Assembly: GCA_944412525.1 (NCBI GenBank)
Contig: CALYBM010000033.1
Span: forward strand, 1 to 43,782
Source: an uncultured Ruminococcus sp.
GTDB lineage: Bacteria; Bacillota; Clostridia; Oscillospirales; Acutalibacteraceae
Length of the DNA: 43,782 nucleotides
Reading direction: 5' to 3'
The notes beneath the pieces were generated by a model that did not search any database, had not been told where the DNA came from, and was given only the letters and a program-made list of their open reading frames with translations. Of the stretch, positions 7,396 to 42,983 are shown one piece after another; the first letter of the stretch is position 1, and each line of letters opens with the position of its first letter. Made by a program: the position numbers and the translations under genes.

Positions 7396-7412
7396 TGTCC
7401 CTCCGAGGGACA
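7396..7412. repeat. Dispersed palindrome, copy 1
   Basis: Core TGTCCCTCCGAGGGACA. It sits between the integrase terminator and the ribosome site of the 76-aa gene. Confidence 0.9.
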
Positions 7413-7437
7413 CATAAAACTTAAGGAGGATTTTAAT

Positions 7438-7668
7438 ATGAGTAGATTTAGTTATGAAACTCCGTATGTTGATAATACGGTTGTAGGGTACCACGGCGAC
7501 CGGGTAATTGTCAAGCAGGATGACGGAGCATTGTTTTACTGTGATGTTCCCTCAAATCTTATAATGCTCGGCGAAACAATGTCACCCAGAGATTTAACAA
7601 GCATTTCAGAGCTACCAATTGATGAGCAGGAAAAAATAAAAAAACAGTATGCAGAATGTGAGGTGTAA
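7438..7668 (+). CDS. Conserved-looking hypothetical protein, 76 aa
   Basis: I do not recognise this family. It is a small acidic soluble protein with a beta-rich N-terminal half (NTVVGYHGDRVIVKQDDGALFYCDV) and a charged helical tail ending EQEKIKKQYAECEV. AAGGAGGATTTTAAT gives it a very strong start. It ends 2 nt before the ArdC-like gene, so the two form an operon, and a linked role is possible but not shown. Confidence 0.7.
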   Translation: MSRFSYETPYVDNTVVGYHGDRVIVKQDDGALFYCDVPSNLIMLGETMSPRDLTSISELPIDEQEKIKKQYAECEV

Positions 7669-7670
7669 AA

Positions 7671-8714
7671 ATGGCTTATAACTTTGATGCTTCTAAATCA
7701 GAAGAGCGAAAAAGTGAAATGCAAAAAGAGGTAATTAACCTTGCTGAAAGTTTTAAAGAAAAACCTCAGAATTTTGCAGAATACTTAAAGTTTTCATCGC
7801 AATTTTATAATTACAGTGCAAGAAACTCAATGCTCATCTATACGCAAAACAGAGGTGCAAGATACTGCAACAGCTTTAAAGCTTTTAAAGATATGGGATA
7901 TTCAGTTAAGAGCGGTGAACATGGTATGAAAATTCTTGTACCAACCGTAAAAACATATCTGCATATCGGCGATAACCTTATACCTTTGAGCAAAGCAACA
8001 ACCGAACAAAAAAACGCATATAAGCTTCAGCAAGTACAGTCTGAACAAAAGCTTTATTTCAAAATCGGAACGGTTTTTGATATTACTCAAACTAATTGCC
8101 CGAAAGAAGATTATCCAAAATATCTTGACTTAGGCTATTCATCAAAGCAGCACGCTCAAATTTACGATTCAATAAAAAAATTCTGCGAAGAAAAATTAAA
8201 TTGTCCTGTTTACGAAAACGCTTTCAGCTCTGTTAATATGCGTGGATATTATGAACCAACCGTAAATTCAATTTCAATAAGCGGAAATTTTGAAGATTCA
8301 ACAAAGCTGTCAATTCTCAGCCACGAGGCGGCACACGCTATGCTGCACAATGATAAAGAAATGAGACTGACAAAACGCCCCGAGGCACAGGTTGAATTTG
8401 AAGCCGATGCAACATCAGTTATGCTTCAGTCATACTTTGGCATTGAAGTCGCAGAAAGCAGATTAAGGCATTTATCATACTGCTATAAAGAAATGCTGTC
8501 ATCTAAAGACATTACAAGTAAAGATGTAATAAATTCACTTGACAGAGCACACAAGGCTTTTAAAACTATAGTTAACAATGTAAATTATAAATTACGACCG
8601 GATTTAGTTCAATCTCAAACACAATCTCAATCGCCGCAAAACTTACCACATCAGACAGTCCTGCCCAATCAGATACCTAATATGGGAATTAGCGGAATGA
8701 GCTTTGGAATGTAA
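7671..8714 (+). CDS. ArdC-like anti-restriction protein with zincin metallopeptidase domain
   Basis: A 347-aa protein. Residues about 15-115 match the ArdC N-terminal ssDNA-binding domain (NFAEYLKFSSQFYNYSARNSMLIYTQN, then GARYCNSFKAFKDMGYSV and KSGEHGMKILVP). The later half is an IrrE/ImmA-like zincin with HEAAH at about 217-221 and a downstream EFEADA metal ligand. ArdC proteins protect incoming single-stranded plasmid DNA from restriction in the recipient. A place near the leading end of an ICE fits that role. The C-terminal 30 residues are a Q/S/P-rich tail. Confidence 0.8.
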   Translation: MAYNFDASKSEERKSEMQKEVINLAESFKEKPQNFAEYLKFSSQFYNYSARNSMLIYTQNRGARYCNSFKAFKDMGYSVKSGEHGMKILVPTVKTYLHIGDNLIPLSKATTEQKNAYKLQQVQSEQKLYFKIGTVFDITQTNCPKEDYPKYLDLGYSSKQHAQIYDSIKKFCEEKLNCPVYENAFSSVNMRGYYEPTVNSISISGNFEDSTKLSILSHEAAHAMLHNDKEMRLTKRPEAQVEFEADATSVMLQSYFGIEVAESRLRHLSYCYKEMLSSKDITSKDVINSLDRAHKAFKTIVNNVNYKLRPDLVQSQTQSQSPQNLPHQTVLPNQIPNMGISGMSFGM

Positions 8715-8721
8715 AACTTTT

Positions 8722-8744
8722 GACTGCAATAGGCAGTCTTTTTT
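8722..8744 (+). terminator. Terminator after the ArdC-like gene
   Basis: GACTGC and GCAGTC arms with a 5-nt loop are followed by six T residues. Confidence 0.7.
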
Positions 8745-8757
8745 ATTATCATAAAAA

Positions 8758-8784
8758 GCAAGTGTCCCTCGGAGGGACACTTGC
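8758..8784. repeat. Dispersed palindrome, copy 2 (27-bp form)
   Basis: Core TGTCCCTCGGAGGGACA at 8763-8779, extended by GCAAG and CTTGC to perfect 13-nt arms around one central G. It lies just after the ArdC operon terminator. Confidence 0.92.
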
Positions 8785-8805
8785 CGTGAAAGGATGTGAT
8801 TTGAA

Positions 8806-9000
8806 TTGAGTAATGTTGGATATGGAAAACTTAGTGATATTCTTGCTAATTCAACTCAAATAAAAGTAAAATCAATAGCGTTATTTCACTATATGAATTC
8901 GGAGAAATTGTTTTTAAAGAATTCATTATATGATAAGCAAAGTTCTGATACATCAAGATTATTTTCTTCTAATGCTTTCCGGCATTTGCGTAAACAATGA
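8806..9000 (+). CDS. Possible small protein or gene remnant, 64 aa
   Basis: A weak call. A TTG codon at 8806 follows AAAGGA by 11 nt and opens SNVGYGKLSDILANSTQIKV, which looks protein-like. The last 37 codons run antisense through the 3' end of a better-supported minus-strand gene. It may be the 5' stump of a gene truncated when the neighbour was inserted. I recognise no family. Confidence 0.25.
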   Translation: MSNVGYGKLSDILANSTQIKVKSIALFHYMNSEKLFLKNSLYDKQSSDTSRLFSSNAFRHLRKQ

Positions 9001-9254
9001 TTTACACCCTTATAATTTAAGAGTAAATTCTCATCATTGATTTTGGAATTGTACAAATACTTTTCGATAGTTTGTTTAAAGCATTTAAGATACAAATATA
9101 AAAACTCGATTTCTTCTGTGTAGAACTGGTTTTCATTTAACAGAAGTTTATTTTTCAGAGGAAAATCAGTCATATTATTATCTGACATAAATTTATTTAA
9201 AATTTGTATTAAAAAGTCAGCTTCAATATCAGTAAAATTTACATTCAGTTTCAT
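8889..9254 (-). CDS. Hypothetical helical protein, 121 aa
   Basis: Unrecognised. It starts MKLNVNFTDIEADFLIQILN and is mostly alpha-helical and rich in Asn, Leu and Lys, with no membrane segment or signal. The ATG at 9254 follows AAAGGAGTGATCTT, a strong site, and a minus-strand promoter lies just upstream (9276-9305). It is one of few ICE genes in this half that face the integrase end. It is single and monocistronic, between palindrome copies 2 and 3, so it forms its own cargo module. Confidence 0.65.
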   Translation of the reverse strand: MKLNVNFTDIEADFLIQILNKFMSDNNMTDFPLKNKLLLNENQFYTEEIEFLYLYLKCFKQTIEKYLYNSKINDENLLLNYKGVNHCLRKCRKALEENNLDVSELCLSYNEFFKNNFSEFI

Positions 9255-9275
9255 AAGATCACTCCTTTGAAAAAT

Positions 9276-9305
9276 ATTATACACAATAATATTAACAATT
9301 GTAAA
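9276..9305 (-). promoter_or_regulatory. Promoter for the 121-aa minus-strand gene
   Basis: TTTACA (9305-9300) is followed by an 18-bp spacer and TATAAT (9281-9276), leading to the start at 9254. Confidence 0.55.
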
Positions 9306-9328
9306 GTATAATGTTTATCTATTACAGC

Positions 9329-9345
9329 TGTCCCTCGGAGGGACA
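9329..9345. repeat. Dispersed palindrome, copy 3
   Basis: Core TGTCCCTCGGAGGGACA, 40 bp upstream of the parA start. Confidence 0.9.
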
Positions 9346-9385
9346 CTTACAAAAAACAAATAATAATAATTCGGGGGAATTAAAA

Positions 9386-10198
9386 ATGACAAAAACAAAG
9401 AACGAAAACAAAAAAGCAATTAAAATCGCAGTATCAAATCAAAAAGGCGGCGTAGGTAAAACAACAACGGTTTTAAATATAGGAGCTGCACTTGCCATGC
9501 AAAAAAGAAAAGTTCTTCTTGTTGACTGCGACCCGCAACATCACCTTTCAAACTGGCTTGATTTTTCGCCAGACGGTAAACCTACAACATCAGATATGAT
9601 TTTCAGTACGGTTACAAACCAACCGATTGATTTTAAAAACTGCATACGCCGCAACGAGCAAGAAAACTTTGATTTTATTCCGTCAATTAATGTGCTAGCC
9701 GGTATGCTTGGAATTATAGCAGCTGATGATAATAGTTCAAATGTTATATCAAGAATCTTTGAAAATGACTATTTTAACGCTAACTATGATTACATAATTT
9801 TCGATTGTCAAACAGCACTTGACCTGCTTGTTACAAATGTACTCAAAGCCTGCGATAAATTACTTATTCCCGTTCAGGCAGATTTACTGAGTTATGAAGG
9901 TGTGGAACAAATGACAGATACATTTATGCGTGTTAAAAACGATACAGATATAAGTAAATACTTAATCGGAATGTTGGTAACAATGTATCAGACAAACACA
10001 AAACACTCCGCAACAATTTTCAATGCACTTAAAGAAAGCTACGGAGATTTAGTTTTTAATACATACATATCTTTCAGAACAGAAACTAAAAACTCGGTTG
10101 GTTATCACCGCAGCAGTGTTTCCGATCACAAATCGGTTGTAGGAGCTCAATATATGGAAGTTTCTCATAAAATAATGGAGGTGTGTGAGAATGCCTGA
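9386..10198 (+). CDS. parA: ParA-family partition ATPase
   Basis: A 270-aa P-loop ATPase of the ParA/Soj/MinD class. Deviant Walker A KGGVGKTT lies at 20-27, followed by LLVDCDPQHHLSNWL (Walker A') and YIIFDCQTALDLL (Walker B). It should position or stabilise the excised element by binding nucleoid DNA with ParB. I chose the ATG at 9386, preceded by CGGGGGAATTAAAA; the open frame extends upstream through the palindrome, where coding is unlikely. Its stop overlaps the start of the parB-like gene, so the two are coupled. Confidence 0.9.
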   Translation: MTKTKNENKKAIKIAVSNQKGGVGKTTTVLNIGAALAMQKRKVLLVDCDPQHHLSNWLDFSPDGKPTTSDMIFSTVTNQPIDFKNCIRRNEQENFDFIPSINVLAGMLGIIAADDNSSNVISRIFENDYFNANYDYIIFDCQTALDLLVTNVLKACDKLLIPVQADLLSYEGVEQMTDTFMRVKNDTDISKYLIGMLVTMYQTNTKHSATIFNALKESYGDLVFNTYISFRTETKNSVGYHRSSVSDHKSVVGAQYMEVSHKIMEVCENA

Positions 10199-11423
10199 AT
10201 TTTTTAAACCGAAAAAACAAGTTCTCAAAACGCCTGAACAAGCTTATGCAGAATTGCTGGGGAACAGCTCTGAAAATCAAATTATTGAAATTCCGATTGA
10301 CTTGACAGATGAAATTGACGATCAGCCTCAAAAAATACATGAGGATAAAATTGACCGAATTGTTGAAAGCATGAAAATAGTCGGACAGCTTGATCCGATT
10401 ATTGTTGTTACAAATCCTAAAAAGGAAGGTAGATACCTTCTTATCGCAGGACGTCACCGGAGGCGTGCTTGTATAAAGCTTGGCTTGCAAAAAGTAAAGG
10501 CTATTATTAAAAAGGAGACAAACCCTGACAAGCAGCGTCTTATGCTCCTTTCAACAAACAATGACCGCAATACAGATTATTTACCGTCAGAACTTGCATT
10601 TTCATATCTTGAACAAATGAAACTGCTTCAAAAACTCGGCAGTAAATCTACAGCAAGTCAGATTGCACAGGAAAACAACACAAATCGTAAAACTGTTCAT
10701 AAATACATTCAACTCACAAAGCTTATCCCCCCTCTGCTCTCCAGAGTTGACAGCAATGCAATTACAGTCGGTGCGGGGTATGAGCTCGCATTCCTATCAG
10801 AATCAGAGCAAGCAAAAGTTTTCAATTTTCTTCTTAATCACTCTGATTGCCATGTAACCAAAGAAAATGCAAGAGAAATCAGACTTGCACCTGATGACTT
10901 GCAAAATATTTTTTATCCCCTTGTAGATAAACCCACATTGTTTGACGACGAGGAAGAAATTGAAACTACAGAAGAGCCGAAAGCAGAGAAAAAAATAAAT
11001 ATTGATATTTCGGAACCCATAAGCTCATCAGTATCATCGGAAAAACAACAAAAAAATTCTCAAGTGCTAATGACCGTTGCATACATTATTCAAAAAGAAG
11101 CTTATTCAATTTTATCTTATATCATTTCGTGTTTCCCAACATCAAAGGAAGTTATTGAGCTTATAAATACTAAATATGTATCTAACGAAATTTCTTTTAA
11201 AGGCACATTAGATGAAGATAAAAAAACTTCTTTCATGCCGGCTTGTGTTCAATACTCGGTCAGCTTCAAAAAAAAGCTCACGATTACTTTTACATCAAAC
11301 ACAAAAACAAAAGAAAATTATAAAATATCTTATGAAGAACTTGACTGTATATTAAGAATATTTCTTCGAAAATATGTTACCATAGAAGATAAAATTTTAG
11401 CTATTAAAGAAGCTCAAAAATAA
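10191..11423 (+). CDS. parB: ParB-like DNA-binding partition protein
   Basis: A 410-aa protein. Residues about 35-110 form the ParB/Srx N-terminal domain, including GQLDPIIVV and the CTP-binding motif GRHRRRA. The next region holds a helix-turn-helix (STASQIAQENNTNRKTVHKYIQL, about 150-180). The remaining 200 residues are acidic then unfamiliar and probably dimerise. The start at 10191 has GGAGG 9 nt upstream and overlaps parA by 8 nt. A ParB needs palindromic parS sites; none of the canonical Bacillus type is evident nearby, but the ICE has many copies of another palindrome. Confidence 0.85.
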   Translation: MPEFFKPKKQVLKTPEQAYAELLGNSSENQIIEIPIDLTDEIDDQPQKIHEDKIDRIVESMKIVGQLDPIIVVTNPKKEGRYLLIAGRHRRRACIKLGLQKVKAIIKKETNPDKQRLMLLSTNNDRNTDYLPSELAFSYLEQMKLLQKLGSKSTASQIAQENNTNRKTVHKYIQLTKLIPPLLSRVDSNAITVGAGYELAFLSESEQAKVFNFLLNHSDCHVTKENAREIRLAPDDLQNIFYPLVDKPTLFDDEEEIETTEEPKAEKKINIDISEPISSSVSSEKQQKNSQVLMTVAYIIQKEAYSILSYIISCFPTSKEVIELINTKYVSNEISFKGTLDEDKKTSFMPACVQYSVSFKKKLTITFTSNTKTKENYKISYEELDCILRIFLRKYVTIEDKILAIKEAQK

Positions 11424-11467
11424 TCGCTAACAACTGAACATTCCCCCAAATGTTCTTTGTCAAAGGG

Positions 11468-11489
11468 GCTTGCACAATTCTGTGCAAGC
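11468..11489 (+). other. Intercistronic hairpin after parB
   Basis: A perfect 8-bp stem (GCTTGCAC/GTGCAAGC) with a 6-nt loop between parB and the dockerin gene. It is not followed by T residues, so it is more likely a processing or stability element than a terminator. Confidence 0.5.
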
Positions 11490-11515
11490 TCCTAAATAAT
11501 ATAAAGGAGTAAAAA

Positions 11516-12115
11516 ATGAAACATTTTAAATTTATTTCAACAATATTAATTATTACTACTGCTTTTGTTGCTTTAAATCTTTATACAAACACTTGTGTAG
11601 AGGCATCAACAATACAAACAGGAGATGTCAACCGTGACGGAGTAATAAATATTGCGGATGCAACATTGATACAAAAATATTTGTCAGGAATAAAAACAGA
11701 TAAAGAATTTTACAGTCAGTATGCTGATTTTGACCGTTCGGGAAAAATCAATGTCGCAGATGCAACATTGATACAGAAATATTGTATAGGCACTATATGT
11801 GTTTATGGTGATTACTTAATCTCCGTTAATAACGGTACAGCGGCAATTTATAAGTATTTTGGCTCAAACAACAGAATAACCATACCTTCAAAATTATACG
11901 GAAACAGCTATGAAATAACAAGCATAAGCAGTAATGCTTTTTATAATAATAAAAACCTTGTTATTGTAAATTTGCCCGAAAACATTAAGACAATAGAAAA
12001 TTACGCTTTTTATAACTGTTCAGAATTAACGACCATTTATTCATATAATAAAAATTTGCGTTGGGGAAATTCTTTTGTTAATTGTCCAAAATTTCAGTCC
12101 ATTAAGTTCAAGTAA
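11516..12115 (+). CDS. Secreted dockerin-domain protein with a BspA-like leucine-rich repeat
   Basis: A 199-aa secreted protein. A signal peptide covers residues 1-30 (cleavage near CVEA-S). A type I dockerin follows with two calcium-binding repeats: GDVNRDGVINIADATLIQKY at about 36-55 and DFDRSGKINVADATLIQKY at about 71-89. The C-terminal half contains a BspA/LRR_5-like unit (ITSISSNAFYNNKNLVIVNLPENIKTIENYAF). Dockerins dock onto cohesins in cellulosome-like complexes of Ruminococcus and Clostridium. There is no catalytic domain, so it may tether an adhesin-like repeat. AAGGAGTAAAAA precedes the ATG. Confidence 0.85.
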   Translation: MKHFKFISTILIITTAFVALNLYTNTCVEASTIQTGDVNRDGVINIADATLIQKYLSGIKTDKEFYSQYADFDRSGKINVADATLIQKYCIGTICVYGDYLISVNNGTAAIYKYFGSNNRITIPSKLYGNSYEITSISSNAFYNNKNLVIVNLPENIKTIENYAFYNCSELTTIYSYNKNLRWGNSFVNCPKFQSIKFK

Positions 12116-12143
12116 TACTCAATGTTATGTTAGGAGTTTTGAT

Positions 12144-12713
12144 ATGAAAAAGACAATTATAATTTTAACATTAATTATTCTAATTTTATTAGTTGCAACA
12201 GGTTGTAATAATATTGACCTTGACAATATATCCGAAGATACATTTAATACTTCTTATATTGATACAACAGAATATAAAGTTACAAGGGTAGTTGACGGCG
12301 ATACGCTCGTAGTAAAAATAAATGATGAAGAAACAAAAGTACGATTAATTGGAATAGATACTCCGGAGAGTGTACATTCCGATGAAAGTAAAAATTGCAG
12401 TTTCGGAAAGACTGTTTCCGACTACACAAAAAAACTGCTTTCTGACGAAAGTGTAACTCTTGAATACGATGTAGAGCAATATGATACATACGGAAGGCTT
12501 CTTGCTTATGTTTATCTCGATGACAATATGATTAATTATGATCTTGTCCTTAACGGCTATGCCGTTGCAAAAGAATATCCGCCAAATGTAAAATACGCTG
12601 ACAAATTTACCGAAGCACAAATCGAAGCCGAAAAGTCCAAAAGCGGTATGTGGTCTGATAATGTGAGTAATTCGGAATGTAATTTGAAAGATCAATACTT
12701 TATAAATTATTAA
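12144..12713 (+). CDS. Thermonuclease-family (SNase) lipoprotein
   Basis: A 189-aa exported nuclease. The N-terminus is a lipoprotein signal with a lipobox-like ending VATGC. The SNase domain shows VTRVVDGDTLVVKI, VRLIGIDTPES (catalytic Arg and Glu), and YGRLLAYVYL (the second catalytic Arg), ending with AEKSKSGMW. Micrococcal-type nucleases cut DNA or RNA with calcium. On an ICE it could process extracellular DNA or act in entry, which is inference. The ATG at 12144 follows TAGGAGTTTTGAT. It lies 28 nt after the dockerin gene. Confidence 0.88.
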   Translation: MKKTIIILTLIILILLVATGCNNIDLDNISEDTFNTSYIDTTEYKVTRVVDGDTLVVKINDEETKVRLIGIDTPESVHSDESKNCSFGKTVSDYTKKLLSDESVTLEYDVEQYDTYGRLLAYVYLDDNMINYDLVLNGYAVAKEYPPNVKYADKFTEAQIEAEKSKSGMWSDNVSNSECNLKDQYFINY

Positions 12714-12715
12714 AG

Positions 12716-12732
12716 TGTCCCTCGAAGGGACA
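12716..12732. repeat. Dispersed palindrome, copy 4
   Basis: Core TGTCCCTCGAAGGGACA, directly after the nuclease stop codon. Confidence 0.88.
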
Positions 12733-12744
12733 CCTTAATAAGGC

Positions 12745-12918
12745 TTAAACTTTGGCAGAGCTGCTTTCGCAAATACTTCTTTGTGCTGCAATAGTCGTAA
12801 GCGTATCGCCTAATTGGCAAAACACAGAACCTAAAATATTTAGTTCATCAATAGATAAATTACAGGACAACATATTTGAAATCGCTGTAATAGATGCAGT
12901 CAATTCGCATGGATTCAT
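12745..12918 (-). CDS. Small DUF6774-like protein, 57 aa
   Basis: A short minus-strand gene below common ORF size limits. It encodes MNPCELTASITAISNMLSCN, then LSIDELNILGSVFCQLGDTL and TTIAAQRSICE. This pattern of a small helical protein with ELTA, SxDEL and FxQLGDTLxTIAAQR is one I associate with the DUF6774 family, often seen in Firmicute mobile elements; its function is unknown. AAAGAGGTGATGAA gives a strong ribosome site before the ATG at 12918. It faces opposite to its neighbours. Confidence 0.7.
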   Translation of the reverse strand: MNPCELTASITAISNMLSCNLSIDELNILGSVFCQLGDTLTTIAAQRSICESSSAKV

Positions 12919-12965
12919 TTCATCACCTCTTTATATAAATATGTTTCATACCATAACAAAGTAAC

Positions 12966-12981
12966 TGTCTCTCAAGGAAAA
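12966..12981. repeat. Degenerate half-palindrome
   Basis: CTGTCTCTCAAGG resembles the left arm of the dispersed palindrome, with the right arm lost. It lies between the DUF6774-like gene and the 44-aa gene. Confidence 0.35.
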
Positions 12982-13003
12982 AAACAAATTAAAGGAGTAA
13001 ATT

Positions 13004-13138
13004 ATGATTTACATTATATTATCTGTATTAATATTATTTAGTGTTTTTGATTTAACGGCAGTATATTGCTATTGCGTGGCGGCAGGTCAATCAGATGAAT
13101 ATTTATATTCAATATCTTATAATGAAGAAAGGAATTAG
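13004..13138 (+). CDS. Small membrane protein, 44 aa
   Basis: A 44-codon gene starting MIYIILSVLILFSVFDLTAV and ending with YCVAAGQSDEYLYSISYNEERN. One hydrophobic segment fills residues 1-25 and a short acidic tail follows. AAAGGAGTAAATT before the ATG argues that it is translated. Small single-pass proteins with a CVAAGxxDE-like tail are common next to conjugation genes of Firmicutes, but I cannot name a function. Confidence 0.55.
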   Translation: MIYIILSVLILFSVFDLTAVYCYCVAAGQSDEYLYSISYNEERN

Positions 13139-13144
13139 TGTTAA

Positions 13145-14773: not shown

Positions 14774-14783
14774 GAGAAAAACA

Positions 14784-15032
14784 ATGCCAAGAAGAAAAAT
14801 CAAAGAAAAAGCAGATAATACATTCAGCAATAATTTAATTTATTACCGAAAAATAAATGGGCTAACCCAACAACAAGTCGCTGATTATCTTGCCGTAAAC
14901 AGAACTACATATACAAAGTATGAGACAGGAGCCTCAGAACCGAGCTTTTTCATACTCCGAAAAATTGTTGAATTATATAAGGTAGATTTCAACAAAATAT
15001 TTATTTCAAATTACACTAAACAAATAAAGTAA
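14784..15032 (+). CDS. XRE-family transcriptional regulator
   Basis: An 82-aa protein that is nearly all helix-turn-helix: NNLIYYRKINGLTQQQVADY, LAVNRTTYTKYETGASEPSFF and ILRKIVELYKVDFNKIF. Such single-domain Cro/CI-like proteins repress their own and nearby promoters. TAGGAG lies 9 nt before the ATG at 14784, 10 nt after the lysozyme stop. It is a candidate controller of the cargo or of ICE excision, but no operator is evident to me. Confidence 0.85.
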   Translation: MPRRKIKEKADNTFSNNLIYYRKINGLTQQQVADYLAVNRTTYTKYETGASEPSFFILRKIVELYKVDFNKIFISNYTKQIK

Positions 15033-15076
15033 ATATTATTTTAAATAAAAAGATACTTGTAAAAGAAGAGGTTAAA

Positions 15077-15448
15077 ATGAACAAATTAACAAAATGGCAA
15101 AAAATAGAAAAATCGCTCAATCGAAATTATTTAAACTTATTTCTTAAAAAGTATTCATTTGTAAGTTATGCATCAAAAGCTGCCGGTATAAAGGTGAGCG
15201 ATCTTGTAAAAGCAGCAAGTTACTTTTTGAATATTAAAACAATTATCATATGGGATAATGATGATTATAAGCAGATGTCGGATTGGAAATCAAAAAAGAC
15301 AAATTTTACTTTGGCACCTATTTATATAGGAAACAATGAATATCTGCATACAATAAAAGATTTTGATAATTACTACATTAGCAAATATTACTTGCTTAAT
15401 AACCGAAAAGGAGCAACACTTGTAATTATTTGTGACAAGGATAATTAA
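15077..15448 (+). CDS. Hypothetical protein, 123 aa
   Basis: Unrecognised. A basic soluble protein. Residues 25-60 (YSFVSYASKAAGIKVSDLVKA) look helical and the rest mixed alpha/beta, with an aromatic-rich end (FDNYYISKYYLLNNRKGATLVII). AGAGGTTAAA precedes the ATG. It lies 44 nt after the XRE gene and may be cotranscribed. It has no signal peptide or metal motif. Confidence 0.6.
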   Translation: MNKLTKWQKIEKSLNRNYLNLFLKKYSFVSYASKAAGIKVSDLVKAASYFLNIKTIIIWDNDDYKQMSDWKSKKTNFTLAPIYIGNNEYLHTIKDFDNYYISKYYLLNNRKGATLVIICDKDN

Positions 15449-15464
15449 TTGAGGAGAATAACAT

Positions 15465-15506: not shown

Positions 15507-15547
15507 AAAACTATTGTATATTTTTTTATTGAAATAACAAATATTTA

Positions 15548-16486: not shown

Positions 16487-16520
16487 TACACAAGCTATTA
16501 TCATAAATTAAATAATATAA

Positions 16521-28970: not shown

Positions 28971-28997
28971 GCAAGTGTCCCTCCGGGGGACACTTGC
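28971..28997. repeat. Dispersed palindrome, copy 5 (27-bp form)
   Basis: Core TGTCCCTCCGGGGGACA at 28976-28992 with GCAAG/CTTGC flanks, between the hydrolase stop and the ribosome site of the next gene. It is inside an apparent operon, so it cannot be a strong terminator here. Confidence 0.88.
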
Positions 28998-35816: not shown

Positions 35817-35822
35817 ACATTT

Positions 35823-35852
35823 AAGCTTGCAGTTTTTACTGCAAGCTTTTTT
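35823..35852 (+). terminator. Terminator of the conjugation operon
   Basis: Perfect 11-bp arms AAGCTTGCAGT/ACTGCAAGCTT followed by TTTTTT. Confidence 0.85.
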
Positions 35853-35880
35853 AATTTCTCAATATTTGTTGAGAAATTAA
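35851..35880. other. Second inverted repeat next to the terminator
   Basis: Perfect 12-bp arms TTAATTTCTCAA/TTGAGAAATTAA with a 6-nt spacer. It is AT-rich and lies 44 bp before the initiator gene, so it may be an operator or part of its control region. Confidence 0.5.
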
Positions 35881-35923
35881 AAAAGCTTATAACAGCTCAC
35901 GAAAATTCAGGAGGAATTTTATT

Positions 35924-37210: not shown

Positions 37211-37740
37211 TAACCATTTAAAGTGCTCGTATTGTAGCGAAATTCGCCCTGTGAGCGATTTTTATCGATTTTTAGTATAAATTCTTGTTTAATCGATTTT
37301 CGTTTGTTACAAGCCAAATTTGACGCTAATACAATCTTCTCTCCTGAATTATCAATTTCCTCACGTGTTTTTTGTCAAAATTTATTGTCCGAAATAATAC
37401 CATATTGAAACCAATATTGATAAAAATCAAGTATTTATCGACTAAAAATAAAATCCAACTTAAATGTAATATTTAAGGGAAATCAAATAATACGCATTTT
37501 CATATTGTAAAATTTGCCGACACTGTCGGCAAATGTAAGCGGAGCAATATTGTTTTCAATATTGCTCCTTTATCCTGCTAAATGACACCTATATAAAATC
37601 GTGGCAGAATTTTTGTTTTTTGCCGTCTCTTCTGCGGGAAAATATATGTTTACACTTGACTTTGTTTCTTATAAACGCCTTAAATATTAAACAGTGCAAA
37701 CGAAAAGCCGTTGTAAATCAACAACGGCTTTCTCGATGCG
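37211..37740. other. Noncoding region rich in inverted repeats; candidate origin
   Basis: No gene is visible. It holds an AT-rich stretch with ATCGATTTTT-type repeats (37253-37304), a perfect 11-bp inverted repeat with one central base (ATTTGCCGACA, 37512-37534), a perfect 12-bp hairpin (GGAGCAATATTG, 37541-37568) and a perfect 11-bp hairpin (AAAGCCGTTGT, 37704-37731). The last two could be terminators in either direction. The position after the initiator and conjugation operon makes it a candidate oriT or oriV. Confidence 0.45.
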
Positions 37741-37889
37741 GCAAGTGTCCCTCGGAGGGACACTTGCAAAATATTTAATTCAAGGCTGCACGGTAACAAA
37801 GCTTCCGATTAATTCTTGACAGAGGGGCAAAGCCCACAAAGCAGAGAAAAAAATAAATTTTATAAACTGTCCCTCCGAGGGACACTTGT
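37741..37889. repeat. Long repeat unit A, bounded by two palindromes (copies 6 and 7)
   Basis: About 147 bp that recur at 39131-39276 with only a few substitutions and a 1-bp indel. The palindrome cores lie at 37746-37762 (TGTCCCTCGGAGGGACA, with GCAAG/CTTGC flanks) and 37868-37884 (TGTCCCTCCGAGGGACA). Between them is a noncoding segment containing CAGAGGGGCAAAGCCCAC. Confidence 0.9.
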
Positions 37890-38165
37890 TTAAACAAATT
37901 CAAGTTTTACTCTTTTGCCCATTCCTTCTGCAATGCGTTCAATAGTTTTTAAAGACGGATTTGCACAACCGTTTTCGATCTTGCTTATATCCCCTTGAGC
38001 AATTCCTGTAACTTCTGCAAGCTGCTGCTGAGTCATATTCTTTTCTTTTCTCGCCTCAAGCATTGCATTAATCAACTGATATTCAGGCTCTAATGCTTCG
38101 TATTCCTTTCTAAACTCTTCGTTTTTTAATCTCTCATTTAGAGTATCTCTAAAACTTCTGCTCAT
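37890..38165 (-). CDS. higA: HigA-like antitoxin (XRE family)
   Basis: A 91-aa protein with a helix-turn-helix at about 40-80 (MTQQQLAEVTGIAQGDISKI, ENGCANPSLKTIERIAEG) and a helical N-terminus (RDTLNERLKNEEFRKEYEAL). This is the classic antitoxin of the HigBA type encoded after the toxin. It would neutralise HigB and repress the shared promoter. Its ATG overlaps the toxin stop by 4 nt. Palindrome copies bracket the pair. Confidence 0.85.
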   Translation of the reverse strand: MSRSFRDTLNERLKNEEFRKEYEALEPEYQLINAMLEARKEKNMTQQQLAEVTGIAQGDISKIENGCANPSLKTIERIAEGMGKRVKLEFV

Positions 38166-38530
38166 AGGTTATTCTCCTCTCTGTTTAGATAATCATTTCT
38201 GTATTTTTTAGCAATATCAATTTCACCTTTTGGTGTTCTCTGAGTTTTTTTAACGAATCCGTTTGTAAGGATTATCTTTTCTCCGATTACAAAGAAATAC
38301 AGTACCCTTGTAATATTGTTTCCGATCTTATTTCTTAATTCAAAAATACCGTCCTCTAAGTGTTTTGAATAAGGTTCTCTTAAATTGTTTCCTTTGCTTT
38401 CAAGCAATTCTAAATTTCTAAAAATTTTTGCCTGCATTTTTATATTTTGCGATAGTATAAATTCTTCAGCAGGATATTCTCCGTCTTTACTTTTATAATA
38501 TTCAATTTTAAAAATCTTACTCATCTCCAT
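38162..38530 (-). CDS. higB: HigB-like toxin (RelE superfamily, Gp49-like)
   Basis: A 122-aa protein with the Gp49/HigB pattern: YPAEEFI, LRNKIGNNITRVLYFFVIGE, KIILTNGFVKKTQRTPKGEI and IAKKYRNDYL. RelE-type toxins cut mRNA on the ribosome. The start could be ATG 38530 or, with better spacing from AGG, ATG 38524. It precedes its antitoxin, the usual HigBA order. A consensus promoter with an operator-like palindrome lies directly upstream. Confidence 0.85.
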   Translation of the reverse strand: MEMSKIFKIEYYKSKDGEYPAEEFILSQNIKMQAKIFRNLELLESKGNNLREPYSKHLEDGIFELRNKIGNNITRVLYFFVIGEKIILTNGFVKKTQRTPKGEIDIAKKYRNDYLNREENNL

Positions 38531-38546
38531 TTACCTGTCTGTATAA

Positions 38547-38575
38547 ATTATATAGGATAAATCCTATATTGTCAA
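38547..38575 (-). promoter_or_regulatory. higBA promoter with overlapping palindromic operator
   Basis: Minus-strand TTGACA (38575-38570), a 17-bp spacer and TATAAT (38552-38547). The palindrome ATATAGGAT-AA-ATCCTATAT at 38550-38569 fills the spacer and touches the -10. It is a likely HigA operator. Confidence 0.75.
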
Positions 38576-38581
38576 TATATA

Positions 38582-38604
38582 AACTGTCCCTCGGAGGGAC
38601 AGTT
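38582..38604. repeat. Dispersed palindrome, copy 8 (AACTG...CAGTT form)
   Basis: Core TGTCCCTCGGAGGGACA at 38585-38601. The flanks are C and G instead of G and C, a compensated change that keeps the stem. Confidence 0.92.
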
Positions 38605-38640
38605 ATAAAAATAAAATAATATGTAAAGGAGACAACAAAA

Positions 38641-39123
38641 ATGTTAAACCGAGTAGTATTAATGGGAAGGCTAACCGCAATTCCCGAGCTCAAAACAACC
38701 CCAACAGGCAAAAGCGTTACAAGCTTCAGTGTCGCAGTTGACCGAAACAATGTAAAAGCAGGAAAGAAACGCAAAGCAGATTTTTTCAACATTGTCTGCT
38801 GGAATAATACAGCAGAATTTGTCTGCCGCTATTTTACCAAAGGCAGTCTTGTAGCTCTTGAAGGCAGACTGCAAAGTCGTACATATCAAACAGATGACGG
38901 TAATAACCGATATATAACGGAAGTGGTCGCTGATACGGTATCATTTATCGGAGAACGCAGAGACAATAGTAATGTAAATTATGATACTGCTGCCGATTCA
39001 GTACCATCCGAACAACCGCTAACGTCTGCAAATAAAAATTCTTCTGCCATACCCGAACAACCGCCAATGTCAGCTCACAATGATTTTGAAGATATGCCGA
39101 TTGATGATGATTTACCGTTTTAA
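38641..39123 (+). CDS. ssb: Single-stranded DNA-binding protein
   Basis: A 160-aa SSB. The OB-fold occupies 1-110 (MLNRVVLMGRLTAIPELKTT, SFSVAVDRN, ADFFNIVCWNNTAEFVCRYF, KGSLVALEGRLQSRTY). A disordered linker follows and the acidic tip ends DDDLPF, which binds partner enzymes. It would coat the transferred strand. AAAGGAGACAACAAAA precedes the ATG. It forms a single-gene module between palindrome copies. Confidence 0.95.
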   Translation: MLNRVVLMGRLTAIPELKTTPTGKSVTSFSVAVDRNNVKAGKKRKADFFNIVCWNNTAEFVCRYFTKGSLVALEGRLQSRTYQTDDGNNRYITEVVADTVSFIGERRDNSNVNYDTAADSVPSEQPLTSANKNSSAIPEQPPMSAHNDFEDMPIDDDLPF

Positions 39124-39130
39124 AATTTCA

Positions 39131-39276
39131 GCAAGTGTCCCTCGGAGGGACACTTGCAAAATATTTAATTTAAAGCTGCATGGTAACAAAACTTCCGATT
39201 AATTCTTAACAGAGGGGCAAGCCCACAAAGCAGAGAAAAAAATAAATTTTATAAACTGTCCCTCCGTGGGACAGGT
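39131..39276. repeat. Long repeat unit B, bounded by two palindromes (copies 9 and 10)
   Basis: Second copy of the unit at 37741-37889. The cores lie at 39136-39152 (TGTCCCTCGGAGGGACA) and 39257-39273 (TGTCCCTCCGTGGGACA). The two units enclose higBA and ssb. Confidence 0.9.
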
Positions 39277-39307
39277 AAATAAACATATTTTTAAGGAGCA
39301 AAACATA

Positions 39308-39655
39308 ATGAAGATTAAAATTAAAATAAAAGAACATACTATTGAAAACAATTTACATAAAATTAATTCTATGATATTATGTAATAAAATAAAATTATCT
39401 GACATTTGTCGCTCGCAAAGAATCACTCATAATAGTTTTTATATTATGGCTTTTCGCATATCAAGAGATAGTTACAATTGTGATGAATATATTGATAATC
39501 TTAATGTTTTACTATCAGATATATTTTTATGTGATAACATAAATGAAAGAATTAAACTTATGAATTTACTTGAAAGTTATGTAAATTTTAGCCCATTTAA
39601 CGGAGATAACAAATTTGAGTATTATAAGAAATATCTTTATAAAAAAATACTGTAA
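39308..39655 (+). CDS. Hypothetical protein, 115 aa
   Basis: Unrecognised. A lysine- and isoleucine-rich helical protein starting MKIKIKIKEHTIENNLHKIN. Residues 30-55 (KIKLSDICRSQRITHNSFYI) could be a degenerate helix-turn-helix. AAGGAGCAAAACATA precedes the ATG at 39308. It overlaps the start of the GNAT-like gene by 41 nt, so the two are probably coupled and may be a functional pair such as a toxin-antitoxin system. Confidence 0.6.
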   Translation: MKIKIKIKEHTIENNLHKINSMILCNKIKLSDICRSQRITHNSFYIMAFRISRDSYNCDEYIDNLNVLLSDIFLCDNINERIKLMNLLESYVNFSPFNGDNKFEYYKKYLYKKIL

Positions 39656-40205
39656 AAATTGTGGTCATGTAAAACTGCTTGAATTAACAACACAGCAATT
39701 GCAGAAGGAAAATAGATGTTTACAAAACAGCACTATAAATCTAACTATGTTAAAAAAGCTAATAGTTTTTAATTCTAAATCAGAAAATATAGTGCGAATC
39801 GAAGAAAATGAAAATGGCTATTTCATAATTACTGTTGAAACCTTTTATAAATTTAACGGTGTCCTATCAGAAATAAATTTTTATGGTTATGTCTTAAATG
39901 AACATAAAGAAAGACCTGCTTGTGTTATGAAATTGTTTTCTCATGTTATTTACGACAATAATTTAAATTTTGCAAGTGGATTGTACATTGATGATATTAT
40001 AAGCGAATCAAACAAAGGATACGGCAGTAAATTGTTGACAGAGTTTATACACTACATACATCCTCTTAACGCAAAATACATAAATGGTGAGCTATCTTCT
40101 GTTGATGAAATCGACTTGAATAATAAAGCTCGAAGAAATCACTTTTATAAAAAGTTTGGTTTCAAAATTGACGAAAATCATATATATTTAAAAATAAAGG
40201 AATAA
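39615..40205 (+). CDS. GNAT-like acetyltransferase-fold protein
   Basis: A 196-aa protein. Residues 105-190 show the GNAT core: a strand with LYIDDIISESNKGYGSKLLTEFI for the acetyl-CoA loop (GYGSKLL, in place of R/QxxGxG/A), then NNKARRNHFYKKFGFKID for the last helix and strand. The N-terminal 60 residues are unfamiliar. The start is TTG at 39615 with GGAGATAACAAAT upstream. GNAT proteins paired with a small upstream protein can be tRNA-acetylating toxins, which is a possibility here and not a call. Confidence 0.55.
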   Translation: MSIIRNIFIKKYCKNCGHVKLLELTTQQLQKENRCLQNSTINLTMLKKLIVFNSKSENIVRIEENENGYFIITVETFYKFNGVLSEINFYGYVLNEHKERPACVMKLFSHVIYDNNLNFASGLYIDDIISESNKGYGSKLLTEFIHYIHPLNAKYINGELSSVDEIDLNNKARRNHFYKKFGFKIDENHIYLKIKE

Positions 40206-40211
40206 TCCAAG

Positions 40212-40228
40212 TGTCCCTCGGAGGGACA
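40212..40228. repeat. Dispersed palindrome, copy 11
   Basis: Core TGTCCCTCGGAGGGACA, just after the GNAT-like gene and before the type III TA promoter. Confidence 0.9.
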
Positions 40229-40240
40229 GTTAAAAATCGT

Positions 40241-40269
40241 TTGACATAAAATATTTTAATGTGTATAAT
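40241..40269 (+). promoter_or_regulatory. Promoter of the type III antitoxin RNA
   Basis: Full-consensus TTGACA (40241-40246), 17-bp spacer, TATAAT (40264-40269). Transcription should start near 40276, just before the RNA repeats. Confidence 0.85.
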
Positions 40270-40275
40270 AATAGT

Positions 40276-40420
40276 ACAGGGAGAAATCCCAATGAATAAC
40301 GCTTACCGTTCGGCGTTTCTAAATTGGCGGTTCGAGTGAATATGCCTACCGTTCGGCGTTTCTAAATTGGCGGTTAGAAGAAAACAGCCTCTTACCTATT
40401 GTTTGGTAGGAGGCTTATTT
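40276..40420 (+). ncRNA. Type III antitoxin RNA (CptI/ToxI-like) with two tandem repeats
   Basis: Downstream of the promoter, a 29-nt sequence beginning TACCGTTCGGCGTTTCTAAA is exactly repeated at 40304-40332 and 40347-40375, with a period of 43 nt. A terminator hairpin follows. Tandem repeats between a strong promoter and a leaky terminator ahead of a toxin gene define type III antitoxins. Two repeats of about 45 nt recall the CptIN family. Confidence 0.75.
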
Positions 40421-40422
40421 CT
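40386..40422 (+). terminator. Attenuating terminator between antitoxin RNA and toxin gene
   Basis: Arms AGCCTCTTACC/GGTAGGAGGCT (one G-T pair) with an 8-nt loop, followed by TATTTCTT. In type III systems this hairpin limits read-through into the toxin. Confidence 0.8.
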
Positions 40423-40439
40423 TTAACAAAGGAGTAATT

Positions 40440-40997
40440 ATGAATGAAAACAGTTTTTATTTGATAAAATCAGATTATATAGATTTAATTAAAAGTCTTG
40501 GCGGACGATACTCAGATAATAAACAAAGACCGATATATTGTTGCATAAAAGACCAATATAATGAAAATTTGTATTGGGCTATACCCACAAGCGATATTTC
40601 GCATAGAAGCAAAGAACAAACAGACAAATTCAGCAAATACACACAATTACCTAAAAACGATATTCGTTCTGCATATTACCATATTGGTTATACAAATAAA
40701 CCTGCACTGTATAAAATAAGCAACTGTTTTCCCATAACGGATAAATACATTGATAGAGCATATACCTCAAAAGGCAAGCCTCTTTGCTTAAAAAATAAAC
40801 ACCAAATTGAAACTATACATAAAAAATTGTTGCAAATTTTATCCTATGAGGGACGTTTTCCAAACAAGCTTGAACAACATATAACCGATATAAAAAATTA
40901 TCTTATTAACGAAATGCAATCACAGCTTAGTCAAAATATTTTGCCGAGTCAAATACAGACTTCACAAAATTTCGGTGAATTTACGCTGGGTCGATAA
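40440..40997 (+). CDS. Type III toxin, ToxN/CptN/TenpN-like endoribonuclease
   Basis: A 185-aa protein similar in layout to the ToxN superfamily: an early helix FYLIKSDYIDLIKSLGGRYS, a strand pair RPIYCCIKDQYNENLYWAIP with the ALTS-like turn PTSDISHRSK, then KNDIRSAYYHIGYTNKPALY, and a terminal helix block FPNKLEQHITDIKNYL. ToxN enzymes cut RNA and are held in a complex with the repeat RNA. The preceding RNA locus strongly supports the call. AAAGGAGTAATT lies before the ATG. The C-terminal 30 residues are Q/S-rich, longer than usual. Confidence 0.75.
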   Translation: MNENSFYLIKSDYIDLIKSLGGRYSDNKQRPIYCCIKDQYNENLYWAIPTSDISHRSKEQTDKFSKYTQLPKNDIRSAYYHIGYTNKPALYKISNCFPITDKYIDRAYTSKGKPLCLKNKHQIETIHKKLLQILSYEGRFPNKLEQHITDIKNYLINEMQSQLSQNILPSQIQTSQNFGEFTLGR

Positions 40998-41001
40998 AAC
41001 A

Positions 41002-41028
41002 GCAAGTGTCCCTCGGAGGGACACTTGC
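41002..41028. repeat. Dispersed palindrome, copy 12 (27-bp form)
   Basis: Core TGTCCCTCGGAGGGACA at 41007-41023, immediately after the type III toxin gene. Confidence 0.92.
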
Positions 41029-41071
41029 ATAGAAAAATATTAGTGTTTACAATAATTTCCAATATTATGTG

Positions 41072-41225
41072 TTGACTTTTCCGCTTTATAGGATATAATA
41101 TTAATAGATGATATGTATATATTTATATTCATATTATCTTACACACGAGTATTGAGAATAAATTTTTGAGTATTAACTTTGAGTACAAACAAAAAGGAAG
41201 GTATATTGTACCTTCCTTTTTTGTT
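41072..41225 (+). ncRNA. Putative small RNA convergent with the DUF3825 gene
   Basis: TTGACT (41072) and TATAAT (41094) are 16 bp apart on the plus strand. The predicted transcript starts near 41106 and ends at a strong hairpin (arms AAAGGAAGGTA/TACCTTCCTTT, 41193-41219) followed by TTTTT. No open frame of note lies inside. A related unit lies at 42090-42190. Confidence 0.5.
41191..41223. terminator. Bidirectional terminator between the small RNA and the DUF3825 gene
   Basis: The 11-bp hairpin has A-rich and T-rich sides, so it can end transcripts from both directions. It lies 6 bp from the DUF3825 stop codon. Confidence 0.75.
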
Positions 41226-41228
41226 TTA

Positions 41229-42011
41229 TCATTCAATAAGCCAATTCGATTCAGGTTTCATAAGCAACCTTGCTTTTTCATAAGCCATTTCTTTAGTAAA
41301 AATAGTATTTGCTCGATATTGAGAAGTACTCGTTTTTTCAACAGCCAATGCCATAGTTTCATATTTATCATCGTCAACGGGAATTCTTATAGGAACGAGA
41401 TACATAATTTCACCGCGATAATACTGTGGTACAACTAATCTTAAATTTCTTTTTATTTTCATTTTAGCTTCTTCAAGAACACCTGATAATAATGTTTTTA
41501 CCACCGTCTTGCTTAAATGCAAAGTATTTTCAATTCTGTCCCAGTTATCATCTAAAATGTGATCGGTATTAACAACTATATTATATTCCGGATTAAAATA
41601 CAATTCCTCAAAATTATCAGTATAACTTGCCAATTCCGGTATATCAGAGAATAAATCCATGAATTCACGGTTACATTTATCCTTAAACCCTTTCAATATC
41701 CACGGCTGAACTCCTGAACGACTATTTTTTTCAAACAAAGCAATAATGTCATTACCATTAGGAGTAAGTAACCCTGTGTTAAAACATGAACAATTCTCGT
41801 CTTTGCTTACTAAGATTTTATTTTGTTTATAACATTGGCTAAAAGTATCTCTAATATATTTTTCAAGTAAGCCATTGGGTTCTTCCTCGTTGAAAGTCCA
41901 TTTTTCTTTCTCTGCAATACCCGCAAGATAAGAAATCATTTTTTTATAACCGTCTTTTGTACCACAAAACGCATAATTATATATAAAAGAATAATCAACT
42001 GTATCACTCAT
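41229..42011 (-). CDS. DUF3825-domain protein
   Basis: A 260-aa soluble protein. The core matches DUF3825: SCFNTGLLTPNGNDIIALFE, GVQPWILKGFKDKCNREFMD, VVNTDHILDDNWDRI and RRNLRLVVPQYYRGEIMYLV-like text (here KRNLRLVVPQYYRGEIMYLV). DUF3825 often accompanies OST-HTH/LOTUS or cold-shock domains and has been proposed to act in RNA metabolism; no catalytic activity is proven to my knowledge. AAGGAGGATTTTAAT precedes the ATG. It forms one cargo module with the convergent small RNA, bracketed by palindrome copies 12 and 13. Confidence 0.75.
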   Translation of the reverse strand: MSDTVDYSFIYNYAFCGTKDGYKKMISYLAGIAEKEKWTFNEEEPNGLLEKYIRDTFSQCYKQNKILVSKDENCSCFNTGLLTPNGNDIIALFEKNSRSGVQPWILKGFKDKCNREFMDLFSDIPELASYTDNFEELYFNPEYNIVVNTDHILDDNWDRIENTLHLSKTVVKTLLSGVLEEAKMKIKRNLRLVVPQYYRGEIMYLVPIRIPVDDDKYETMALAVEKTSTSQYRANTIFTKEMAYEKARLLMKPESNWLIE

Positions 42012-42033
42012 ATTAAAATCCTCCTTAAGTTTT

Positions 42034-42056
42034 ATGTGTCCCTCGAAGGGACACTT
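42034..42056. repeat. Dispersed palindrome, copy 13
   Basis: Core TGTCCCTCGAAGGGACA at 42037-42053, in the 5' untranslated region of the DUF3825 gene. Confidence 0.88.
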
Positions 42057-42089
42057 GTTTAAAAATTAGAATTGCAATAATTTTTATTG

Positions 42090-42190
42090 TTGACATTTTC
42101 AGTTTAATGCATATGATAACAGATAATATGTATTTATCACACGCAAGTATTGAGAACAAACAAAAGGGAAGGTTAAACCTTTCTTTTTTA
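42090..42190 (+). ncRNA. Putative small RNA convergent with the Cys-rich gene
   Basis: TTGACA (42090) and TATGAT (42112) are 16 bp apart. The predicted transcript of about 65 nt ends at a short hairpin (AAGGTT/AACCTT near 42169-42181) followed by TCTTTTTTA. It shares several blocks with the unit at 41072-41225, such as AGTATTGAGAA and ACAAACAAAA.GGAAGGT. Confidence 0.45.
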
Positions 42191-42194
42191 TTTT

Positions 42195-42911
42195 CTATAA
42201 GACTATATCTTCTGTTTTCTGTGCTTTTGATAACAAAGTGTTAACTTTGCTTTGGCTTATTTCTAAACTTGCTCGATTTTCAATACCGCTTAACATATGA
42301 GTTAACATGACTGAAATGCTATTGCAAACCTCATCATAACAAGGTAACCTTCCAGAAATCGGCACAATATATTTATTTAAAAATTGTGCGTATTTTAAAG
42401 GTTTTGCATTATTATAACATAATGATGCATAGAAGGAAGTTTCAGGGTATTCGTGCAAATAGTAATCACCTTGAGCAGCACCGCAATGCGAACAATGATT
42501 TAAAAAATAACTATCATTAATTTTCTTTGAATAACCGAATTTATAATTGCAATTATGCTCTAAATATCTTGTGAGTTTTCCGGGGACTCCTTTAAGATAT
42601 GAAAACAACATTAAATCCTCACTATGTCGGACACTTGAATCCTCTACTATAAAACAACTATTAGAGCCAATACAAACACATTTTGTTTCTTTATGACACT
42701 TCCAACAAGTTCTCGTTATCTCGAATAAATATAAATTCTCTGCCAACACATTAAAATCATTTACAGGAATCCAATCTTTAAACTTTAAAACATTATTTAT
42801 ATTTTTCAAATAAAACTTATTTATGTTTGTATCTAACTCTAAATCATTATTTGCTAAAAAGTTTAAATCATCAGTATTAGCTTTTAACAGCAATCTCATT
42901 TCTTTATTCAC
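42195..42911 (-). CDS. Cys-rich hypothetical protein with two CxxC motifs, 238 aa
   Basis: I do not recognise this family. The N-terminal 55 residues contain FKDWIPVN. The centre has CWKCHKETKCVCIG near 70-82, then HCSHCGAAQGDYYLHEYPET near 138-157, suggesting a zinc site built from two CxxC pairs. The C-terminal third is helical. There are no membrane segments. AAAGGGTAGTGA lies before the ATG at 42911. It may be a nucleic-acid-binding or defence protein, but there is no direct evidence. It forms a module bracketed by palindrome copies 13 and 14. Confidence 0.6.
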   Translation of the reverse strand: MNKEMRLLLKANTDDLNFLANNDLELDTNINKFYLKNINNVLKFKDWIPVNDFNVLAENLYLFEITRTCWKCHKETKCVCIGSNSCFIVEDSSVRHSEDLMLFSYLKGVPGKLTRYLEHNCNYKFGYSKKINDSYFLNHCSHCGAAQGDYYLHEYPETSFYASLCYNNAKPLKYAQFLNKYIVPISGRLPCYDEVCNSISVMLTHMLSGIENRASLEISQSKVNTLLSKAQKTEDIVL

Positions 42912-42966
42912 TACCCTTTACCTAAAACCGTTGTTATATATTTTCACTGCTTATAGATTTTTTTAG

Positions 42967-42983
42967 TGCCCCTCCGAGGGACA
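42967..42983. repeat. Dispersed palindrome, copy 14
   Basis: Core TGCCCCTCCGAGGGACA, with one mismatch in the left arm. It is the last copy before the right end of the element. Confidence 0.85.

Follow-up and report, generated by a model that had tools for sequence, protein, structure and literature searches.

The locus analyzed here raises the question of what purpose is served by a short palindrome that recurs between the genes of an integrative and conjugative element (ICE). The window, i.e. the whole stretch of DNA analyzed, comprises positions 1 to 43,782 of contig CALYBM010000033.1 (43,782 nucleotides; GenBank assembly GCA_944412525.1) from an uncultured Ruminococcus sp. It contains an ICE bounded by 46-bp direct repeats at 6186..6231 (left end) and 43636..43681 (right end), the latter overlapping a tRNA-Arg gene (43637-43713, minus strand). 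We propose that the palindromes are parS- or operator-like sites bound by the ParB protein which the ICE itself encodes, and that they are used in a KorB-like manner; on sequence comparison we give this a probability of about 0.68. ParB would load at numerous palindromes dispersed over the element, frequently ahead of promoters and at the ends of genes, and would control parAB and the cargo modules by repression or activation, and perhaps partition as well. Since many of the modules have this short sequence at their ends, the palindromes may double as joints for gain, loss, duplication, and reordering of modules between related ICEs; recombination at the joints is assumed to proceed by homologous exchange or by slippage between short repeats.

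The palindrome is confined to the ICE

The 17-bp palindrome TGTCCCTC-N-GAGGGACA is present in 14 copies in the ICE, and all 14 coordinates given in a preliminary description of this DNA were found to be exact. With the centre base free, nine copies are devoid of mismatches and five carry a single one (those starting at 12716, 28976, 39257, 42037, and 42967). A shuffled window is expected to contain 0.02-0.04 copies; this control and scrambled palindromes ruled out a chance origin. A search of the host genome (1,988,221 bases in 126 contigs) with up to two mismatches returned only these 14 copies and none for the reversed pattern, confirming the suggestion that the palindrome is absent from the rest of the host. 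Hence, all copies in this genome are confined to the ICE, and dispersal over the host chromosome as for repetitive extragenic palindromic (REP) elements was not observed. Evidence of REP-like mobilization was not found either, although no search for a RAYT transposase was made.

The position of the copies between genes was confirmed for 14 of 14 copies, depending on the choice of start codons: gene starts and ends were set by mechanical rules, and the first-ATG rule places the copies at 9329 and 28976 within open reading frames (ORFs) extended at their 5' end. Two statements of the preliminary description had to be corrected. The stem was said to be kept at the base pair flanking the core; this is wrong because the pair, which is G-C in eight copies and C-G in two, is broken in 4/14 (C.C at 7396, 9329, and 37868; G.G at 40212), and selection for a stem at this position is not supported. 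A degenerate half-palindrome reported at 12966 is one among 19 half-sites (at most one mismatch) located outside palindromes in the window and is therefore no evidence of a site. A known RNA family was considered and rejected, as Rfam at the gathering threshold returned just the tRNA.

The palindrome in related elements

An exact scan of genome contigs identified 62 stretches with the palindrome, 40 of them in 13 metagenome-assembled genomes (MAGs) assigned to Ruminococcus or "uncultured Clostridia"; among 295 genomes drawn from the order, exact copies were found in the own genome only. The site statistics omit the other 22 stretches, namely 7 from one Gemmobacter MAG and 15 singles in other genomes. 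They are based on 24 pieces (23 from the 13 genomes plus the window) comprising 744,863 bases with 170 sites at up to two mismatches, a tolerance which makes the core appear conserved. Ten scrambled palindromes gave 0-2 matches each in the same pieces. In the Gemmobacter MAG (L005, L017, L022, L033, L039, L060, and L066) the same 17-mer occurs 19 times at up to one mismatch with GC-rich flanks; it is apparently an unrelated repeat.

Most sites are located in ICEs which share core genes with the window, namely parA, parB, virB4, and ssb as well as the genes for a MobL relaxase, a type IV coupling protein (T4CP), and an HTH_36 protein, at 24-86% identity over the proteins compared. The pieces from G299, G303, and G307 show few or none of them. 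Positions recurring across elements are found before parA, in the gap between the CHAP and lipoprotein genes, in a prgI/virB6 gap that is not part of the window, and around ssb. A viral collection contained five weak ParB relatives and six single palindromes; no relatives of the ParB from genome G199, which carries a palindrome of its own described below, were found in it.

ParB as the putative binding protein

The genes parA (9386..10198, plus strand), encoding an AAA_31 ATPase (Pfam E-value 7e-40), and parB (10191..11423, plus strand) adjoin each other. ParB, the proposed binder of the sites, contains a ParB_N domain (E-value 4e-11) and a helix-turn-helix (HTH) and scores above the cut-off of TIGR00180; a GRHRRRA stretch was noticed by eye. 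Its AlphaFold model (mean pLDDT 77.7, pTM 0.52, linker 245-288 under 50) matches structures of ParB, Noc, and KorB, some of them with DNA (6t1f, 7ol9, 8qa8, and 8qa9; Foldseek E-values 4e-11 for 6t1f and 3e-9 for 8qa9), so that a ParB fold with HTH is predicted. The recognition helix comprises residues 166-175 of the model.

The start of parA lies 40 bp downstream of site 3 (9329..9345), and a site is located 27-44 bp upstream of the parA start in 8/9 elements; in the ninth, from G305, it stands ahead of the preceding gene. A palindromic site thus accompanies parAB and is repeated through the element, as in systems of the ParABS/KorB type. Furthermore, four elements (G295, G298, G300, and G304) carry a site within the parB reading frame, where it encodes the linker residues CPSEGH or CPSKGH.

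The recognition helices were compared next to the palindromes. All nine ParBs of type I, to which the window ParB belongs (seven without near-copies), carry [TS]NRK[TS]VH, a motif found in none of seven other ParBs compared. Three of the type-I proteins are just 54-57% identical to the window ParB in the rest of the core; the ParB of L142 shows 54% identity in the same region, but it has a VTTKEVQ helix and its own palindrome GAGGACANNNTGTCCTC (present three times, twice within parB). Fixed in the nine type-I ParBs and absent from the seven others are K114, H170 in the helix, and Y197; by reading of the alignments, the latter appears to correspond to the parS-contacting R204 of Caulobacter ParB.

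Other ParBs are likewise accompanied by other palindromes. G301:C25 contains four copies of RTGGACANNNTGTCCAY (two in parB, one in the parA/int gap, and one more), with further copies on G301:C1; exact copies of TCGGACANNNTGTCCGA occur 7 times in G199 and 13 times in G533; and TGGGGCTTNAAGCCCCA of G279 is found in parB on C66 and once on C88, its reversed control giving 0. G301 harbors two ICEs in one genome, and their ParBs, one of type I and the other encoded on C25, are identical at 93/104 C-terminal and 91/193 core residues as compared to 4/12 residues of the helix; their palindromes differ. Altogether, five ParB versions have palindromes of their own, these being few independent cases next to two ParBs without a clear palindrome and one site cluster without ParB. 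The location of sites by parAB and, in the few cases available, the comparison of the helices support the suggestion that the ICE ParB is the likely binder. A further palindrome, AAGTGGGACTTNAAGTCCCA, whose right arm is mostly CTT, was noticed on G279:C41 (L199) in four copies (4471, 4778, 5062, and 6002) near the ends of small genes, a layout as in the window.

Another DNA-binding protein of the ICE, of the HTH_36, ribbon-helix-helix (RHH), or HTH_3 type, could bind the sites in place of ParB. HTH_36 and RHH proteins are in fact encoded in 8/8 related genomes with a type-I ParB. However, parAB and the same arrangement of sites are found on G301:C25, and homologues of the HTH_36 and RHH proteins were detected neither on this contig nor in the initial 40 kb of C1, a contig that possibly carries the remainder of the C25 ICE. 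The HTH_3 protein was found in just a few type-I elements. We regard binding by one of these proteins as quite unlikely.

Promoters point away from the sites

Strong sigma-70-type promoters pointing away from a site and starting at most 80 bp from it were found in 28/340 flanks as compared to 2-5 at six shifted positions. Pointing toward the site, there was one in 340 flanks as compared to 2-5 at four shifts. In the window, the promoters of higBA and of the toxin module both match the consensus at 12/12 positions; their -35 boxes are located 9 bp from site 8 (38585..38601), which forms the higBA/ssb boundary, and 12 bp from site 11 (40212..40228), respectively.

Protein-binding site or hairpin

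Pairing of the arms was analyzed with 131 non-redundant sites, 39 of the 170 having been removed for similar flanks. At distances of 1, 2, 10, and 11 from the centre the arms paired no better than shuffled ones (p = 0.18, 0.44, 0.64, and 0.12). Pairs at distance 13 were more frequent (p = 0.02), with a p-value of 0.53 after omission of a class of 27-bp palindromes with arms GCAAG...CTTGC. On the whole, the halves seem to be conserved each by itself, as in a two-fold protein site, and some longer arms do pair. The hairpin does not clearly appear to be the selected feature because the arms vary independently at most of the variable positions near the core.

RNA hairpins acting as terminators, mRNA-end stabilizers, or processing sites, or else REP-like repeats, would account for part of the data. 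The hairpins predicted for the window sites have energies of -8.7 to -22.1 kcal/mol, many sites lie 0-14 bp past a stop codon, and several in the window score terminator-like; furthermore, the palindromes of an ICE in G533 keep longer paired arms. T-rich tracts were found in 98/340 flanks as compared to 107/680 shifted ones, at one side at least of 87/170 sites, and because of this excess we retain the RNA hairpin as a rival explanation. It is nevertheless improbable: arms are independent at the four distances given above, sites are located within parB, and promoters start beyond the site and not before it (28 vs 1).

Observations weighing against ParB

Several results speak against ParB binding as the function of the palindromes. 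The pair flanking the core (distance 9) covaries weakly: it is formed in 68 of the 131 sites, whereas shuffling predicts 57.9 (p = 0.03, or 0.13 if the 27-bp class is omitted). Distance 12 covaries clearly (p < 0.001 with or without this class); core pairs 3-8 are nearly invariant and hence uninformative on pairing. Some of the 28 outward promoters are near-copies of one another in related elements. The shifted controls are mostly located in coding DNA; the contrast between promoters pointing away and toward is the better control.

Furthermore, no ParB was detected by profile search in 80 kb for the ICE of G533 (C1, about 1.61-1.67 Mb), which carries 11 exact TCGGACANNNTGTCCGA sites. At up to two mismatches, counts of TCGGACANNNTGTCCGA and of its reversed control over whole genomes were 16/10 in G199, 36/29 in G533, and 0/15 in G329; being barely above the control genome-wide, the case for this palindrome rests on the clustering of its exact copies. 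No close type-I ParB was found in 5 of the 13 related genomes with type-I sites (G296, G299, G303, G306, and G307), four of which have weaker ParB matches, and no clear palindrome was found for L144 and G481. Finally, type I forms a single clade in a tree of ParA (14 rows; 99/97), and the match between helix and palindrome therefore counts as one event for type I. The ICE of G533 (L167-L170) belongs to another family; its toxin gene is 58% identical to that of the window.

Modules and breakpoints

The sites delimit 107 stretches of 60-3500 bp, taken as modules, among which 25 families of two or more members were recognized. Modules with ssb, higBA, the toxin gene, DUF3825, the nuclease gene, the 115-aa ORF and GNAT genes, and others recur in differing surroundings or orders. 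The nuclease module, for example, is located in the left part of the window, whereas it stands next to parA in G295 and belongs to the right-hand array of both G300 and G304; on G298:C14 the toxin gene has an inverted orientation with respect to the T4CP gene.

Breakpoints were determined at ≥85% identity and clustered within 15 bp. Pieces with four or more sites were used (17 of 24), and each joint between a pair of pieces was as a rule entered for both. Among 251 distinct breakpoints, 32 are located within 5 bp, 35 within 10 bp, and 44 within 30 bp of a site. From 1000 shifts of the sites, 5.1 breakpoints (maximum 14) were expected within 10 bp and 10.2 (maximum 24) within 30 bp. The remaining 207 breakpoints are further than 30 bp from sites, many of them in internal repeats. 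A breakpoint was found in 31/95 gaps containing a site and in 39/189 gaps lacking one; the former are also longer (402 vs 162 bp), and part of the excess therefore comes from the gap itself.

The cleanest joint was observed between G300:C11 and G304:C33. To the left and right of the orf8889 module (family F10; 8780..9328, minus strand, in the window) their sequences are 97-99% identical; G304:C33 lacks this module and has the palindrome as the joint. G300:C48 contains two tandem ssb arrays, at whose joints one palindrome flank is kept and the other changed. The palindrome was originally described as marking module boundaries throughout the ICE. Recurring modules and the excess of breakpoints support the boundary part in some measure, and cargo breakpoints do fall at palindromes in related elements; "throughout" is too wide, most breakpoints lying elsewhere. 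Equal density over the host and cargo breakpoints that ignore the palindromes had been named as outcomes contradicting the preliminary description; both analyses were carried out and gave neither.

These data might also indicate that the palindrome is primarily a cassette-exchange site with a dedicated recombinase, similar to integron attC or Acinetobacter pdif, regulation being secondary. The 25 module families, several of them reordered, the 35 breakpoints within 10 bp, and the exact joints at the orf8889 module and in the ssb arrays agree with such a role. However, the symmetric 8-1-8 core with variable flanks differs from the 11-6-11 Xer site of pdif modules, and the attC core GTTRRRY / RYYYAAC is absent from the core consensus (both compared by eye). 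The integrase of the window matches Phage_integrase, and no second recombinase was recognized among the scanned window proteins, a systematic search not having been made. Sites are also present in parB, before parA, and within the transfer operon, and the gaps which contain them are longer, as mentioned above. We regard a dedicated recombination site as unlikely.

If the palindromes are ParB sites, we tentatively suggest, as a speculation we would not yet favor, that ParB operators act as universal joints: a module ended by sites could be exchanged between co-resident ICEs and would at once be ParB-controlled. The cargo zone might then be an array of operator-bounded cassettes, with a site "dialect" of each ParB lineage limiting the trade.

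Layout of the sites in the window

Site 1 (7396..7412) has the integrase gene on one side and a 76-aa ORF and ardC on the other; site 2 (8763..8779) lies 3' of ardC and extends to a palindrome of 27 bp. Between sites 2 and 3 is the orf8889 module, present or absent in related elements. Site 4 (12716..12732) begins 2 bp past the stop codon of the nuclease gene, and site 5 (28976..28992) occupies a short gap with the CHAP gene at 7 bp and the lipoprotein gene at 19 bp. Site 6 (37746..37762) is the left boundary of a 105-bp spacer module, which site 7 (37868..37884) separates from the higBA module (family F21; 37885..38584, minus strand). Site 8 is followed by the ssb module (family F0 with eight members; 38602..39135, plus strand). 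Site 9 (39136..39152), located 3' of ssb, bounds a second spacer module on the left, and site 10 (39257..39273) precedes the module of the 115-aa ORF and GNAT gene (F19; 39274..40211, plus strand).

The toxin module (F6; 40229..41006, plus strand) extends from site 11 to site 12 (41007..41023), which is located 3' of the toxin gene and again extends to 27 bp. The toxin is CptIN-like, of type III; the match at 40229-40997 reaches 65.8 bits and thus stays under the curated NCBI cut-off of 90, and Tandem Repeats Finder detected no tandem-repeat antitoxin RNA in 40200-43600. The DUF3825 module follows (F20; 41024..42036, minus strand). Site 13 (42037..42053) lies 25 bp ahead of the DUF3825 gene and site 14 (42967..42983) 55 bp ahead of a 238-aa ORF, both on the minus strand.

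Positions 7396-7442 and 42007-42053 carry the same DNA, consisting of palindrome, ribosome-binding site, and start codon, except for one base of the palindrome core; the genes downstream are different (7438, plus strand; 42011, minus strand). The flank GCAGAGAAAAAAATAAATTT is located left of many palindromes (37825-37867 and 39214-39256 in the window) and also encodes part of the ParB linker (10980-11003); this flank and the palindrome may have moved together into or out of parB. For GCAGAGAAAA, 17 of 30 occurrences in the set fall within 70 bp of a site.

Implications and comparison with known systems

If ParB indeed acts at these joints, the way in which ICEs gain cargo without breaking regulation would be linked to the role of ICE-borne ParAB, and this may explain how ICEs acquire genes pre-wired into the control system of the element. 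The palindrome would also provide a sequence tag for this ICE family, and the five ParB-site pairs would contribute to the ParB DNA code. It is predicted that site dialects restrict cassette exchange and that cargo toxin-antitoxin modules are under ParB control.

In plasmid RK2, the OB operators of KorB precede promoters by 4-10 bp or by 45 bp to >1 kb (PMC11790492). The ICE described here resembles this system in having a ParB-family protein of a conjugative element, with a fold match to 8qa8 and 8qa9, and promoters pointing away from the sites. It differs in being a Firmicutes ICE with a different site, which is also found at gene ends, in parB, and at module joints. NAH7 has parS repeats (parSNAH) near conjugation and partition genes and a ParB that raises transcription (PMC12421886); this system is proteobacterial, and it is not known to have cassette boundaries at these repeats.

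Specificity of ParB can be changed through few HTH residues (PMC7383237). As in chromosomal ParABS and Noc-NBS, the site is two-fold, and in those systems it is read by the HTH of ParB. The half-site TGTCCCTC agrees at 6/8 positions with the parS half TGTTCCAC. Unlike ParABS and Noc, there is one free centre base, and many sites occur within one mobile element.

The pdif modules of Acinetobacter plasmids are similar in that short sites bound shuffled accessory modules, often with toxin-antitoxin genes; pdif sites, however, are XerCD sites, whereas the present palindrome looks operator-like and has no known recombinase. Mobile regulatory cassettes, in which regulatory sequences serve as joints for module shuffling, were reportedly described by Arbiol in 2010 for T4-type phages; those are phage promoters with stem-loops, and no ParB is known to be involved. 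In the accessible portions of the open-licence literature we found no account of this palindrome or of ParB-type sites at ICE module joints. Dispersed operators of ParB-family regulators are already known from KorB of RK2 and ParB of NAH7, and it is their role as joints between ICE modules that would be new.

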